Part shown: positions 6,244-13,790 of the stretch, in pieces
Numbering within the stretch: the stretch's first letter is position 1
How the letters are laid out: every line of letters begins with the position of its first letter
Virus record (IMG/VR): IMGVR_UViG_3300028024_000009
Coordinates: 1-60,546 of that record
Length of the DNA: 60,546 nucleotides
Strand: one strand, 5' to 3'
From: a virus
Notes under the pieces: generated by a model
Databases searched by the model: none
What the model was told of the DNA's origin: nothing
What the model saw: the letters and a program-made list of their open reading frames with translations, nothing else
Program-made: the position numbers and the translations under genes

Positions 6244-6373
6244 TATCTTCGCTTCGAAGAAGATGGCGACCGACGCGGGCTGGTGCTTTACGATGCGCTA
6301 CACGAAAGACATTATTCTCTGCCCCGACTGCGGGCCAGAAATCATGCCACACTACTACGCGAGGCGAACATGA
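6137..6373 (+). CDS. Zinc-finger protein, member B of a tandem pair
   Basis: 78 residues if ATG 6137 is used. The informative part is residues 25-72, where Cys, a Gly-Trp-Cys-Phe segment and Cys-Pro-Asp-Cys-Gly-Pro match the preceding protein. The start is uncertain because the N-terminal 25 residues lie entirely inside the upstream gene and have a weak ribosome-binding site. The true start may be further downstream, near 6203. Confidence 0.5.
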   Translation: MAVSVILRVSCDASVNREGSKLKKKCSRHDEFESSNIFASKKMATDAGWCFTMRYTKDIILCPDCGPEIMPHYYARRT

Positions 6374-6465
6374 CCTGCTCAGATTGGCTTGAAAAGAACT
6401 TCTGGTGGTTCTGTCCAATGGTCGGGATAACTCTCGCTGGAATCATAATTTGGTTCCTCGGGTGA
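6370..6465 (+). CDS. 31-residue membrane peptide
   Basis: Starts on ATGA at the end of the zinc-finger gene. It has a Trp-Phe-Trp-Trp-Phe-Cys motif and one transmembrane segment (about residues 10-30). It is the last protein gene before the long noncoding region. Confidence 0.45.
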   Translation: MTCSDWLEKNFWWFCPMVGITLAGIIIWFLG

Positions 6466-6473
6466 TCTTCGGG

Positions 6474-6503
6474 TTGCAGCCGCTGATCGTTCTGTTTTAA
6501 GCT
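6474..6503 (+). promoter_or_regulatory. Candidate promoter of the large RNA
   Basis: TTGCAG (6474-6479), an 18-base spacer and TAAGCT (6498-6503). The -35 hexamer is identical to that of the candidate at 15122. The -10 box is weak. It is placed to transcribe the structured noncoding region that follows. Confidence 0.35.
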
Positions 6504-7153
6504 ATCGTTCGTCGCTCGGGTTGTTCGTTCGATCCCGTGCGGTGGGGTTTACGAAGCTACTGCTCCTTCACGGCTTCTCGCAAGAGAAGTCCCCGGTTAC
6601 GGGGATAAGGAGAAACGCTCCCCGGAACCCCCGGGTCGCAGCCGCTCCCTGCTAAAGTCCGTGTTTCCCCACAGTTACCTGGACTCCCTGGTATAGCGGC
6701 TACGGTCCTTCGCGAAGATTTCCGGATGGCTCTCCTCGGGTCGTCGTGCATTAGCCAGCGGACTCTCGGATGCCGGAAATCTTCGCAAAGGATCGAGCCC
6801 CGGTGCGCACACATCGAGGTTCGTTCGAAAAGGAATGCGGTCGGCGTGGTCAGACACGCAGCAGCCAAGCCCGTATGCTAGGTTTACGCGGGACAGCTTC
6901 GTCGGGGAGAGCCTAGAAAGTTCCCGTCGCTGGTGAAAGAAGTCTTAGTAACGCGTCCAAGAGGCTCCCGGTTTACCGGTACAGCTCTATCCGGGACTAC
7001 CAAGCGAATCCAGCACCGCAGACGATGAATAGGGGAAGATCGTTAAGAGCTTCGGCTCGCGACTGGTGAGCTCAAAGTCACAGACAACGAGCTAACTTAC
7101 CAGCCAGCTAAGATCCTTAGCGGGATCGTCGCTGAAGAGCTTCCCCGGCGCCG

Positions 7154-7223
7154 ACGAGATTAGCTCAGTGGTAGAGTGCGGGACTAGGTCCCGAGGTCGA
7201 GGGTTCGAATCCCTCATCTCGTC
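7154..7223 (+). tRNA. tRNA-like element with shortened anticodon loop
   Basis: Acceptor ACGAGAT/ATCTCGT (extendable to 8 bp by G7153-C7223), TA at positions 8-9, D arm GCTC-AGTGGTA-GAGT, and T arm GAGGG-TTCGAAT-CCCTC are all canonical. The anticodon arm is not: CGGGA-CTAGG-TCCCG gives a 5-base loop, two short of normal. Melting one pair gives a 7-base loop with central TAG but C instead of the invariant T before it. No amino acid can be assigned. It may be a decayed tRNA or a structural tRNA mimic within the large RNA. No CCA is encoded. Confidence 0.55.
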
Positions 7224-7485
7224 CTTTTCAGGTTGCGCCCGAGCCGAGGCACAATGAGTATCGGCCCGCATTTCTGGGAGCTTGCGTAATCCGTACCCAG
7301 CGCATCCGAGTCTGCGACAGTGCGTTCGGCCGTGTCATCCCTGCGGAATCAGGGATGGGTCCTTTTCTCGAGGGCCCTGGGAATGCTGCCGTGACTACAT
7401 TCTAGGTTATGACGTCACGGCTAATCTTCGTCGCAGGGTCCTCGAGAAAAGCAGGTGCAAGAGCATGATCCAGACGAAGAGGATC

Positions 7486-7502
7486 GCCGGTTCGAATCCG
7501 GC
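7486..7502 (+). other. T-arm-like hairpin
   Basis: GCCGG-TTCGAAT-CCGGC is a perfect tRNA T arm, loop consensus included. No matching acceptor, D or anticodon arm could be assembled around it; GATCC/GGATC (7468-7485) just upstream gives a 9-base loop without the expected T. It may be a tRNA fragment or a tertiary-contact module of the large RNA. Confidence 0.45.
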
Positions 7503-7789
7503 CTGTGGAGGCGGGGGTGCGCAATCGTACACGCACAGTGTCTTTTCGAAGGCGCAGTGATAAAAATCGAGGGCAGGTAGCTACTCTCCGCTTCATGCAC
7601 GCATGGGGGACTACGGAGAAACAGTACCTCGGTGGAATCCAATTGGGCAACTCCTCACTGCGCCCCCGAAAGGGGTTGACGTTTGCCCGAACGTTCTGCT
7701 ATTGAGGGTTCTGTTTACTCAGCTCGGAGCCTTCGAAGTACGGCAAGCGTCAACTCCCCTTTTTTCTCAACCAACCGCTCGACCTATTG

Positions 7790-7821
7790 CCCCGTTTAAG
7801 CTACGCTTATTCGGGGTTTTT
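7790..7821 (+). terminator. Intrinsic terminator after the large RNA
   Basis: CCCCG (7790-7794) pairs with CGGGG (7812-7816). An inner AAGC/GCTT stem is closed by a TAC loop, and five T follow. It ends the noncoding transcript just before the KGG gene. Confidence 0.75.
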
Positions 7822-7835
7822 CTTTGGAGCAGAAA

Positions 7836-8189
7836 ATGTCGAAATCTAATCGAGGGTTTGCGTCGATGAGCGCGGAACGGCAACGTGAGATTGCGAGCAT
7901 GGGCGGGAAAGCCGTACCGGCGGAGCAGCGTTCGTTTTCGCGGAACCGGGGGCTCGCAGCGGCGGCGGGCGCAAAGGGGGGTAAAAGCGTGCCCGCAAAC
8001 GAACGGAGCTTCTTTAAGGACCGCGATTTAGCTCGGGCGGCGGGGTCGTCCGGGGGTAAAGCCGTACCGGCCGATAAACGCTCCTTCGCGCAAAACGCGA
8101 GCTTGGCAGCAGAGGCTGGTCGGAAAGGTGGTTTGGCCCCGAGAACACCCACTGAGGAGAAGACCGATGCTAAGCCAAGCAACGAGTGA
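7836..8189 (+). CDS. KGG-repeat stress-type protein
   Basis: 117 residues built from three to four copies of a unit of about 25 residues containing GGKAVPAxxRSFxxxxxLAxxAG, typical of the KGG domain of stress-induced GsiB/YciG-type proteins. Such proteins are hydrophilic and largely disordered. ATG at 7836 follows GGAGCAG, and the terminator upstream makes a separate transcription start likely. The role in a phage is unknown; protection of proteins or DNA is inferred. Confidence 0.75.
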   Translation: MSKSNRGFASMSAERQREIASMGGKAVPAEQRSFSRNRGLAAAAGAKGGKSVPANERSFFKDRDLARAAGSSGGKAVPADKRSFAQNASLAAEAGRKGGLAPRTPTEEKTDAKPSNE

Positions 8190-9083: not shown

Positions 9084-10589
9084 ATGTCCACCGCTCTAGC
9101 CAAGCTTGATCTCTCCGACCCCGGATCGCTGCGGAAGCAGCTAGCCGCATTCAATACGGAGGACCTAATCCTCCTGCGCTGGAAGATGCTATGGAAAGCC
9201 CAAGCCCGGCGCAAACAAATTCCCCCCACCCTGTTACCGAGCGGCAAGCCGTGGAAAGTCTTCGGCGTGCGCTCCGGTCGCGGCTTCGGCAAAACTCTGA
9301 TGGGAGCGAATTGGCTCGGGCAGGCTGCCGCAAGCGATCCCGGGAGCTACAATTTCGTTATCGCTCCGACGCACGACGACGTACGATATACGTGCTTCGA
9401 AGGTCCTACGGGGCTCTTTTCGGTTATCCCCCCGCAGCTCATCGCCGATTGCAATTTGACGCTCCCGTCGATAACCCTGACGAACAGGTCGATCATCAGA
9501 GGATTCGCGGCCGTCGCTCCCGAGCGCTTGCGCGGTCCGCAGAGCAATCGCATCTGGGCGGATGAGGTTGCGTCTTGGCGCGAGCCTAATAAGTCCTGGG
9601 ACAACCTGATGTTCGGGTTGCGCCTCGGTCCGCATCCGCAGATCTTCTGGACTGGCACGCCGAAGCCAACCCCGTTCGTCACCAAGCTGTGCAAATATCT
9701 CACCGACATTCTGGTGTTGGGATCCACATACGAGAATCGGGAAAATCTGGCCGACTCGTTCTACGAGAACGTTGCAAAGTACGAAGGGACGAAGATCGGT
9801 CGTCAGGAACTCTATGGGGAGCTGATCGATCCCGAAGAGTCTGGATTCGTCAAGCGTTCCGATTGGAGGCTTTGGCCGGCGGGCAAGCCGCTGCCTCGCT
9901 TTAAGTTCATCCTCCTCTCCCTGGACACCGCTTTTACTGAGAAAACGTTCGATAAAAAGGAACAGGAGAACGATCCGACTGCCTGTTCCGTTTGGGGTAT
10001 GTTCGAATACGAGCGCAAAGAGCACGTGATGCTGCTCGACTGCTGGGAAGAGCACCTCGGGTTCCCCGAGCTGATCCGCCGTACCAAGCGGGAGATGAAG
10101 AAAACGTACGGAGATGCCGACGAACCCCTGATCAAGGTCGTTCTCCCCGGACAGATTACTCCACACCACGGACGCAAGCCTGATTTGATCTTGATCGAGG
10201 ATAAAGGCAGCGGTATTTCTCTGCGCCAATCTCTGGCAATGGAAAATATATTCGCTGAGCCATATAATCCGGGCCGCATGGATAAGCTCTCCCGGCTCCA
10301 TGCGGTATCTCCCCTCTTCCCCCACAAGCGGGTATGGGCAGTGGAGAGCCGGAACAATCGGGGGAACCCGGTTTCGTGGGCCGATCCGATCATCACTCAG
10401 GTTTGCTCGTATGTCGGCGAGGGTTCTCTCGAGCACGATGACCTTCTCGACACCGCGACACAGGCATTGAAGTTTTTGATGGATAAGTTCCGGATGACGT
10501 TTACGAACAAGGTCGATCCCGACGAGAAGACTAAACAGGCGGCCGATAAGCTCCGACAGAAAAAGGCAGGTAACCCCTATGATCAATGA
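9084..10589 (+). CDS. terL: Terminase large subunit
   Basis: A 501-residue DNA-packaging motor. The ATPase domain has Walker A Ser-Gly-Arg-Gly-Phe-Gly-Lys-Thr (residues 64-71) and Walker B Ile-Trp-Ala-Asp-Glu-Val near residue 160, followed by a Thr-Gly-Thr-Pro coupling motif. The C-terminal RNase-H-like nuclease shows acidic residues in Leu-Ser-Leu-Asp-Thr-Ala, Leu-Ile-Glu-Asp-Lys-Gly-Ser-Gly and His-Asp-Asp-Leu-Leu-Asp. It cuts concatemers and pumps DNA through the portal encoded at 11187. No small terminase was identified; one of the small upstream genes may fill that role. Confidence 0.93.
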   Translation: MSTALAKLDLSDPGSLRKQLAAFNTEDLILLRWKMLWKAQARRKQIPPTLLPSGKPWKVFGVRSGRGFGKTLMGANWLGQAAASDPGSYNFVIAPTHDDVRYTCFEGPTGLFSVIPPQLIADCNLTLPSITLTNRSIIRGFAAVAPERLRGPQSNRIWADEVASWREPNKSWDNLMFGLRLGPHPQIFWTGTPKPTPFVTKLCKYLTDILVLGSTYENRENLADSFYENVAKYEGTKIGRQELYGELIDPEESGFVKRSDWRLWPAGKPLPRFKFILLSLDTAFTEKTFDKKEQENDPTACSVWGMFEYERKEHVMLLDCWEEHLGFPELIRRTKREMKKTYGDADEPLIKVVLPGQITPHHGRKPDLILIEDKGSGISLRQSLAMENIFAEPYNPGRMDKLSRLHAVSPLFPHKRVWAVESRNNRGNPVSWADPIITQVCSYVGEGSLEHDDLLDTATQALKFLMDKFRMTFTNKVDPDEKTKQAADKLRQKKAGNPYDQ

Positions 10590-11186: not shown

Positions 11187-13790
11187 ATGGCTACCGCTGA
11201 AGGTGAAGTGCTACCCGTAGAGTCCGACGACGAGGATCCAATCGAAACTGATGATGGCGGAGCCATTCTCAAGCTTCAAAAGGACGAGAAGGAATCCTCA
11301 CCCCCGGCTAATGAGACCGAATTCTATCGGAATCTGGCGGAGGAGATTCCAGACTACTATCTGGTCCAGCTCGGCGAGCAGCTGAAGAAGGCTATCGAGC
11401 AAGACAAGAAGGACCGCGAGGAACGCGACAAACAGCAGGCCGAGTCGATCAAGAGAACCGGATTCGGGGGCGAGGCTCCAGGCGGTGCCTCTTTCATGGG
11501 CGCGTCGAAGGCGGTTCACCCGATGCTCGGGAAGGCTGCAATTGACTTTGGCTCACGCATGATCGCTGAGCTGTTCCCCCCTGAAGGCCCCGTGAGGGAT
11601 TACATCCCCGGCGAAGCAACCCAGGAACGCGTTGATAAGGCACGGCGCAAATGCGCCTACATGAATTGGCAGTTCAAGGTTCAGATGCCGGAGGCCTACA
11701 ACCAGACTGAGCAGATGCTGGTTCAAGATGTGATGGGAGGCTCTCAGTACATCCGAATCGTGTGGGACGAGCGTCGCCGGCGTCCGGTTTATCAGTTCAT
11801 TCCGATTGATGAAGTCTACCTGCCATCGGCCGCTAGCGACTACTACACGTCGGAGCGTATCACTTACGCGGAGACCATCACGCAGCTCGAGTTCGAAAAT
11901 CGCGTTCGTGCCAAGATCTATCTGAAGGTCAAGGATCCGCCGCCATCGCAGGCTCCCGAGCGCACTGAATCGCAAAAGGCTACGGACAGAATCGCGGGCA
12001 ACAAGCCGGAGCAGCTGAATCAGTCGGGCTCGAGAATGGTGTATCTGTCGGAAACCTTCCTCGAGATCGAGCAGAATGGTAGACTTCGCATTCCGGGTGA
12101 GGAGCGCGGCGAAGGGTCTCCCGAGATGCTCGAGGTCGATCCACTACCGTACCTCATCTCGGTCGATGCCCAGACCGGTAAGATTCTGTCGATCGTTCGT
12201 AATTGGGAAGAGGAGGACAAGAACTACGAGCCCATCCGCTGGATGACTGATTTCCCGTTCCTTGTATGGAGGGGTGCTGTCGGTGCGTCTCTCGGACAAA
12301 TCATCGGATCTCTCAGTGGCGCTGCTACTGGTGCTCTACGAGCTTTGCTGGATAGCGCTCATATTAACAACATTCCAACCCTGCTGAAGTTGAAGGGTGC
12401 GAATATGCCTGGCCAGTCTATCGAGACTGGGGTTGGGCAGATCATCGAGATCGAGGGCGGAGTGGCTCCCGATCAGGATATCCGGAAGCTGTTGATGGCC
12501 ATCCCGTACAATGAGCCGTCCTTGACTCTCTTACAGCTCCTTGGCTTCCTGGGCGACGCAGGGGAAGGCGTCGTGCAGATGACGTTCACGAAGTTCGTCG
12601 AATCGGGTCGTCCAGACATGCCCGTCGGGACCACTCTCGCCCTCATTGAGCAGGGAATGAAAGTCCTTGCCGGCATCCATAAGCGGATGCACTCTTCGAT
12701 GGACAAGTTGATTCGACACTTGCATCGTATCAACCGAATGTACGTTACGGACGACGAGATCAAGAACGACACGGGGGAGATGCTCGCGCTCCGGTCTGAC
12801 TTCGAAGGACCGCTTGATGTGGTTCCGATCTCCGATCCGGAAGTGTTTTCGGACGTGCAGCGGTTCGCTCAACTCCAGCTAATCTCACAGCGGGCGATGA
12901 CACTGCCGATGCTCTATGACCTGAGGAAGGTCGAGGAGCTGATCCTCTCCCGTACAAAGGTTCCGAACGCCAAGGAGTTGTTGCTCCCGTCAAACACTCC
13001 GAAGGAGATGAATGCCGTCAACGAGAACATGGCGATGGCGCTCGGTCAGGGGGTCGCGGCGTTCCCGGAGCAAGATCATCTTGCACATATTCAAGTCCAC
13101 GTCGACTTCTGGAACAATCCATTCCTCGGCAAACAGAACCCGGTACTGGTGCAAAAGCTCGCGCCGAAGTTCGTCCAACACCTGATGGAGCATATTCTCC
13201 TATGGTACGTAAGTCATACGGTGGAGATCGTCTCAAAGGAGGCCGGTAAAGACGTCGGGGCACTATTGAAGTACCGTGATCCGGAGACTCGTGCGGAGCT
13301 TGATCGCACGCTCGCGGCAGCCTCGGCCGGGGTACTCCTCGACGTGAATGAGAAATTTGCTAAGTTGCCCCCGATCATCGACGAGGCCTGGCAGATCGCT
13401 CAGAAGATTGCATCCTCCCAGATGCCACAGGATCCCGCTTCGGCTGCTGCGGTTCAGATCGCTCAGATGGACAACGCGACCAAGGCGAAGAAGATCGACA
13501 CGGATGCGCAGATCGCTTCGATGAAGCACGGTGGAGAACAGCAGAAGGTTCAGGCGGAACTCGGAGATCGACAGCTGGCACGTATTGCCGAGGCTGCGAA
13601 TGAGCAGCGGCGTCAGGAGGGCGACGACCGACGCACACAGCTCGACAACGCAACGAAGGAGCGTACGAATCTCCAGGACAACATGACCGCTCTCACTATC
13701 GCGGACGCCGAAGTGCAGAGCAAAGAGAAAGTAGCGGTTTCAAAAGGCACCGGGGTCAATCCCGGATCAAAGCAACCAAGCGGAGAATAA
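11187..13790 (+). CDS. Portal protein
   Basis: An 867-residue head-tail connector of podovirus type: an acidic N-terminus, a conserved core (about 110-560) with Phe-Met-Gly-Ala-Ser-Lys-Ala-Val-His-Pro, and a Gln/Ala-rich C-terminal coiled coil (about 740-830) like a portal barrel. It follows terL and precedes scaffold and capsid genes. Twelve copies normally form the DNA channel at one capsid vertex. Its length is similar to the larger podoviral portals. Confidence 0.88.
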   Translation: MATAEGEVLPVESDDEDPIETDDGGAILKLQKDEKESSPPANETEFYRNLAEEIPDYYLVQLGEQLKKAIEQDKKDREERDKQQAESIKRTGFGGEAPGGASFMGASKAVHPMLGKAAIDFGSRMIAELFPPEGPVRDYIPGEATQERVDKARRKCAYMNWQFKVQMPEAYNQTEQMLVQDVMGGSQYIRIVWDERRRRPVYQFIPIDEVYLPSAASDYYTSERITYAETITQLEFENRVRAKIYLKVKDPPPSQAPERTESQKATDRIAGNKPEQLNQSGSRMVYLSETFLEIEQNGRLRIPGEERGEGSPEMLEVDPLPYLISVDAQTGKILSIVRNWEEEDKNYEPIRWMTDFPFLVWRGAVGASLGQIIGSLSGAATGALRALLDSAHINNIPTLLKLKGANMPGQSIETGVGQIIEIEGGVAPDQDIRKLLMAIPYNEPSLTLLQLLGFLGDAGEGVVQMTFTKFVESGRPDMPVGTTLALIEQGMKVLAGIHKRMHSSMDKLIRHLHRINRMYVTDDEIKNDTGEMLALRSDFEGPLDVVPISDPEVFSDVQRFAQLQLISQRAMTLPMLYDLRKVEELILSRTKVPNAKELLLPSNTPKEMNAVNENMAMALGQGVAAFPEQDHLAHIQVHVDFWNNPFLGKQNPVLVQKLAPKFVQHLMEHILLWYVSHTVEIVSKEAGKDVGALLKYRDPETRAELDRTLAAASAGVLLDVNEKFAKLPPIIDEAWQIAQKIASSQMPQDPASAAAVQIAQMDNATKAKKIDTDAQIASMKHGGEQQKVQAELGDRQLARIAEAANEQRRQEGDDRRTQLDNATKERTNLQDNMTALTIADAEVQSKEKVAVSKGTGVNPGSKQPSGE

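Follow-up and report, generated by a model that had tools for sequence, protein, structure and literature searches.

The locus studied here raises the question of whether a long gene-free stretch in a densely coding phage genome encodes one large structured RNA, and whether such an RNA belongs to a known family. GOLLD and ROOL are RNA-only cages of unknown function that are often tied to phage tRNAs. In the window, the whole 60,546-nucleotide stretch of IMG/VR record IMGVR_UViG_3300028024_000009, a sequence-only reading had proposed a giant structured non-coding RNA, possibly a new member or relative of GOLLD/ROOL, in a gene-free 1.3 kb of a tightly packed phage arm.

The coding content was analysed with a codon-usage gene model trained on the genome's own long genes. 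The coding share of the 60.5-kb phage record was 90%. Genes were modelled up to 6373 and then again from 7824, leaving 6374-7822 as the sole gap of more than 500 nt; the second-longest non-coding gap of the genome measured 492 nt. The first 92 nt of the modelled gap belong to a 31-aa ORF, and the truly empty stretch is 6466-7823. The boundary and the region are as follows.

6370-6465, plus strand: 31-aa ORF with a hydrophobic stretch, read from the sequence, forming the boundary directly 5' of the region
6466-7823, plus strand: whole gene-free region, candidate long ncRNA (gene model, ORF scores, fold z about -5)

Inside the region, 14 ORFs of at least 40 aa were scored and gave -18.5 to +2.7 bits, compared to 6.8 to 254 bits for genes that were listed within the first 16 kb. 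Since all ORF scores were non-coding or near zero, protein coding was set aside for 6466-7823. The gene-free stretch was thus borne out by both the gene model and the ORF scores, and none of the 14 frames scored as a gene, which would have counted against an RNA. The genes for the terminase large subunit (9084-10589) and the portal protein (11187-13790) are both located downstream of the region. The product of the gene directly after it (7824-8189) is a KGG-repeat stress protein (PF10685), an unexpected find in a phage.

The strength of the fold was tested by comparing the predicted fold with 40 dinucleotide shuffles and is given as a z score. For 6485-7765 the z score was -5.1 and none of the 40 shuffles was as low; when the tRNA and the terminator were left out, it was still -4.4. 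The strongest part was the 3' domain at 7226-7765 (z -5.1). In a local scan of the whole genome with 200-nt windows, where the mean was -0.38 and the standard deviation 0.54, the run of windows from 6600 was the genome minimum with an 8-window mean of -2.38. For calibration, the genuine ROOL RNA of Lactobacillus phage Lb338-1 (L206:21866-22438) was folded in the same way and reached -4.0, whereas two phage tRNA-array stretches of about equal length reached -1.6 and -1.8. The fold excess is therefore at the level of a real large RNA and beyond what a tRNA cluster explains. With a fold far under the shuffled controls and no coding frame, the region fits the general kind of large structured phage ncRNAs. 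The minus strand of the region, compared with shuffles of its own, gave a z score of -4.8. Since it is equally unusual, the fold neither picks the strand nor proves an RNA function; it is the tRNA, the terminators and the orientation of the neighbouring genes that point to the plus strand. A strand test of G-U versus A-C gave a non-decisive 21:14.

The elements located in the predicted fold are listed below.

6485-7150, plus strand: 5' domain with a weak fold excess (z -2.4)
6573-6590, plus strand: 7-bp hairpin with a GCAA tetraloop at 6580-6583 (probability 0.91)
6703-6795, plus strand: long hairpin with arms 6703-6725/6773-6795 (23 nt, 91% complementary; core probability 1.00)
7047-7058, plus strand: UUCG-tetraloop hairpin, loop 7051-7054 (probability 0.82)
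7226-7671, plus strand: 3' domain without the terminator stem (z -4.0, 0 of 40 shuffles as low)
7300-7522, plus strand: multibranched unit with a closing 8-bp helix 7300-7307/7515-7522 (probability 0.81)
7362-7451, plus strand: long hairpin with an outer stem of 18 bp and an inner stem of 8 bp (probability 0.99)
7425-7432, plus strand: internal-loop segment UCUUCGUC with complementarity to the hairpin loop 7473-7480
7467-7485, plus strand: 5-bp hairpin with the 9-nt loop AGACGAAGA, partner of 7425-7432 (probability 0.99)
7544-7671, plus strand: stem-closed sub-domain with 17-nt arms 7544-7560/7655-7671 (88%; helix search and fold)
7672-7765, plus strand: 16-bp helix 7672-7687/7742-7757 with a large loop, followed by T6 at 7760-7765
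7789-7822, plus strand: second, compact intrinsic terminator hairpin just 5' of the gene at 7824 (fold z -5.6)

The strong helices described from the sequence are present, as the 14-bp, 18-bp, 17-nt and 16-bp stems were all located. The perfect 14-bp stem (6712-6725/6773-6786) forms the core of the 6703-6795 hairpin, and the 18-bp stem with one G-U pair is at 7362-7379/7434-7451. These two had been called long-range helices; the stems are real, but the listed stems have only 47-94 nt between their arms and are not long-range. Where several GNRA or UUCG loops had been noted, the confident stems show a single clear loop of each type, GCAA at 6580-6583 for GNRA and UUCG at 7051-7054. The pairings that join the domains had probabilities of about 0.4-0.8. 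A pseudoknot between 7425-7432 and the loop 7473-7480 is possible, with weak support: 6 nt were fully unpaired on both sides, a result equalled by 6 of 100 shuffles. The intrinsic terminator expected at the end of the region was found as the 16-bp helix followed by T6, and the element 7672-7765 is probably an intrinsic terminator with a large loop. The 3' end of the candidate RNA was taken as either the U-tract 7760-7765 or the second terminator. A promoter-like site was sought for the candidate RNA and none was found. The loop of the terminator stem holds the self-complementary octamer GAACGTTC at 7689-7696, a possible dimer contact.

The middle of the region is occupied by a tRNA-like fold, and part of a second one is found in the 3' domain.

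7154-7223, plus strand: tRNA-like domain with an abnormal anticodon arm (Rfam tRNA 60.8 bits, ARAGORN, folds)
7486-7502, plus strand: second T-arm/T-loop, GCCGG TTCGAAT CCGGC (matches to phage tRNA genes)

The embedded tRNA-like fold is real: it scored 60.8 bits against the Rfam tRNA model at a cut-off of 29, the cloverleaf is present, and ARAGORN found it and no other tRNA in the window. Visual reading shows the elbow positions U8, A14, G18-G19, A21 and the TTCGAAT loop to be intact. The anticodon arm departs from the standard arm with U33 and a 7-nt loop, having C33 and a distance from the D-stem to the anticodon that is one nucleotide short; the fold prediction prefers 6 pairs closing a UAG triloop. 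Among 98 tRNAs, U33 was present in 89 and C33 in 6 (mostly phage, with 7154-7223 included and some C33 possibly misread). Leucine tRNAs have a long variable arm. The anticodon of 7154-7223 is a leucine anticodon, yet the long variable arm is missing, which is a further mismatch. We conclude that the tRNA part likely has a non-decoding, tRNA-like role. The T-arm at 7486-7502 is similar to phage tRNA 3' halves; a 5' half of a split tRNA that would fit it was sought, and no convincing candidate was found.

Odd tRNAs were also observed in related phages. One at L048:688-780 has an anticodon that ARAGORN did not name, an extra arm and mismatched acceptor pairs. At L022:5956-6160 (IMGVR_UViG_3300036859_000726, contig about 10,955-11,150), a tRNA-Ile(GAT)-like gene that was missed by ARAGORN has an apparent insert of about 130 nt in the D-loop (GCGGAATAGCTCAGGGGT ... 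AGAGCGCCAGCCTGATAAGCTGG ... TTCCGCTACCA).

Membership in a known family was tested with an Rfam 15 scan of 1.65 kb, using the gathering cut-offs and, with permissive filters, E<=10. At E<=10 no family except tRNA was above its cut-off, and HEARO, OLE and the group I and group II introns were not listed. The gathering scores are 150 bits for GOLLD (RF02032) and 99.1 bits for ROOL (RF03087). Neither covariance model matched at E<=10 in the Rfam scan or in a dedicated search, the GOLLD search being one without a GOLLD positive control; GOLLD was sought for this purpose in 121 genomes of one class and none was found. For ROOL, the same Rfam scan detected the RNA of Lactobacillus phage Lb338-1 at 213.5 bits. 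In that phage (NC_012530.1), the ROOL RNA at L206:21866-22438 is on the minus strand and overlaps the hypothetical proteins lb338_phage_47 and _48; since it overlaps both, they are probably not genes. The Infernal check with the GOLLD, ROOL and HEARO models thus gave no match at E<=10, and the proposal of a new member or relative of GOLLD/ROOL did not hold against a ROOL control of 213.5 bits. What stands of the giant structured ncRNA is a large structured non-coding region with a tRNA and a terminator, whereas the family name falls. The region does share one GOLLD trait, a location with phage tRNAs and sometimes a tRNA inside, as the tRNA 7154-7223 lies within it. The likeness to GOLLD/ROOL is one of kind, namely length, phage setting, tRNA inside and strong fold, and not of membership.

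Relatives were searched for at several levels. A blastn search of 50,697 phage records gave no homologue of the region and matched only its tRNA-like parts; short matches to Gordonia, Corynebacterium and Vibrio phages were isolated, about 25-35 nt long, with E values of 0.06 or worse. The PLSDB plasmids (blastn) and two samples of 385 and 398 genomes (query in each case: one half of the region) contained no homologue. IMG/VR, searched with exact 18-nt and gapped patterns only, gave no matches or chance matches, and in those inspected the similarity ended at the pattern itself. About 100 further loci came from phages related through the portal or, at up to 65% identity, the terminase. Neither blastn nor nhmmer detected any similarity to the region in these loci, and single-sequence covariance models found no relative over 1.1 Mb of them; the model R1 of 7300-7522 found only itself. 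The related phages do not have the candidate region at the same place. The absence of relatives means "not found" within the searched sets, which may lack very close records.

Some related phages and prophages have other gaps near this position. MW202545.1 has a 1.37-kb annotation gap at the corresponding position (L032:3858-5231); it was rejected as a homologue, and several short, overlapping, unannotated ORFs that look coding were observed in it. Gaps in G001, G002 and others were also rejected, being repeat-rich, iteron-like and unrelated. Repeat-rich non-coding gaps upstream of the terminase were seen at L034:200-1340, L035:200-1200, L054:3033-3758, L078:3312-3805 and L138:4453-5671; their repeats (TAACCCTGT, GAGGGCCGAG, TGCAGCAT, AGGGTAAACCCTA) are probably origin-like iterons. 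The motif GTAAGTCCTTGATTTA is common to L034 (about 421-437) and L035 (about 481-497), which are otherwise different gaps.

The region is best read as an orphan among large structured phage ncRNAs, one that contains a tRNA-like domain and is laid out like GOLLD without being GOLLD. We infer that it is transcribed, that its parts act as one molecule and that it has a function, and give a probability of about 0.5 to the region being one functional RNA. Counted against one RNA are the weak 5' half (z -2.4), the uncertain domain-joining pairings and the minus-strand z score of -4.8, and further that no homologue and no promoter-like site were found and that the region is not in place in related phages. 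An ordinary intergenic region with one tRNA gene that is slightly degenerate, the remnant of a decayed tRNA (the T-arm at 7486) and independent hairpins and terminators, but no single large RNA, would account for the tRNA and T-arm relics, the z score of -2.4 in the 5' domain, the weak inter-domain pairing and the lack of conservation in relatives, and odd lone tRNAs do occur in other phages of the group. However, two phage tRNA arrays, intact and equally long, reach z scores of only -1.6 and -1.8, stems of 14-18 bp are no tRNA relics, and it would be unusual for a phage with 90% coding DNA to leave 1.3 kb unused. We regard this explanation as possible though doubtful; it keeps its weight owing to the weak structure of the 5' half and to a unity of the parts that is only presumed.

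An element acting at the DNA level upstream of the terminase, such as a replication origin or a packaging site with cruciform hairpins, would fit with both strands being equally unusual in fold and with the iteron-array-like non-coding gaps upstream of the terminase in several related phages. Iteron-like direct repeats were sought in the region itself and none were found, and the tRNA and the U-tract terminators on the plus strand speak for transcription, which makes such an element quite unlikely. A highly diverged GOLLD or ROOL beyond recognition by the Rfam models is highly improbable: length, phage setting and the tRNA inside fit the described layout (PMC12286853), but the permissive scan of 1.65 kb and the dedicated searches gave no match at E<=10, and ROOL was detected in another phage at 213.5 bits, the GOLLD search having no such positive control.

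If the region is one structured ncRNA, it would be about 1.25-1.3 kb long, transcribed from the plus strand along with the neighbouring genes and would end at 7765, with a looser 5' domain followed by the middle tRNA-like domain and a compact 3' domain. By analogy with GOLLD and ROOL, it would most likely act as an abundant, protein-independent RNA scaffold of lytic growth that displays or encloses the tRNA-like part. Since its anticodon arm seems unsuited to normal decoding, this part would more likely offer tRNA-binding enzymes a handle than serve in translation; examples are RNase P cleavage near 7153/7154, CCA addition and the occupation of a host tRNA nuclease. In an unlikely but specific form of this proposal, the RNA would represent a new class of giant phage RNAs, unrelated to GOLLD/ROOL, in which two structured domains flank a covalently attached tRNA mimic that does not decode; it would act either as an assembly made of RNA alone or as a decoy to host enzymes that target tRNAs. 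If an unrelated RNA of this kind has a built-in tRNA, repeated invention by phages would be suggested and the tRNA would be a clue to function. The candidate is at present a single unreplicated sequence and its weight is limited accordingly.

GOLLD forms a closed 14-mer RNA cage and has a conserved 3' domain with covariation support. Like the candidate, GOLLD (RF02032) is a large phage ncRNA with a variable part flanked by two structured domains, and a tRNA inside is known for its linkers; it differs in its length of about 0.8 kb versus about 1.3 kb here, and its covariance model does not match at E<=10. GOLLD linkers sometimes carry tRNAs, and both GOLLD and ROOL are often found near phage tRNAs (PMC12286853). 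ROOL (RF03087) is likewise a phage ncRNA of large size and strong fold that often lies close to tRNAs, with a similar z score (-4.0 in Lb338-1), whereas the region here is about twice as long, has its tRNA inside and not beside it, and is not matched by the ROOL model. The anticodon loops of phage tRNAs are often altered, possibly as a protection against host nucleases (PMC10264068); 7154-7223 shares the intact tRNA body and the altered loop, but sits inside a 1.3-kb structured region. Two further lncRNAs are described for phage K (PMC9241854). In vibriophage ICP1, a gene-free gap of about 1 kb between gp139 and gp140 gives rise to an unclassified ncRNA of about 800 nt, the most abundant ICP1 transcript (PMC7567579). 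The ICP1 RNA resembles the candidate in its gene-free gap of about 1 kb within a densely packed phage genome and in its position outside the named families. The phage ICP1 itself has no tRNAs, and its ncRNA was seen as a transcript by RNA-seq, whereas the candidate, which has no blastn similarity to any phage record, is predicted from its sequence.
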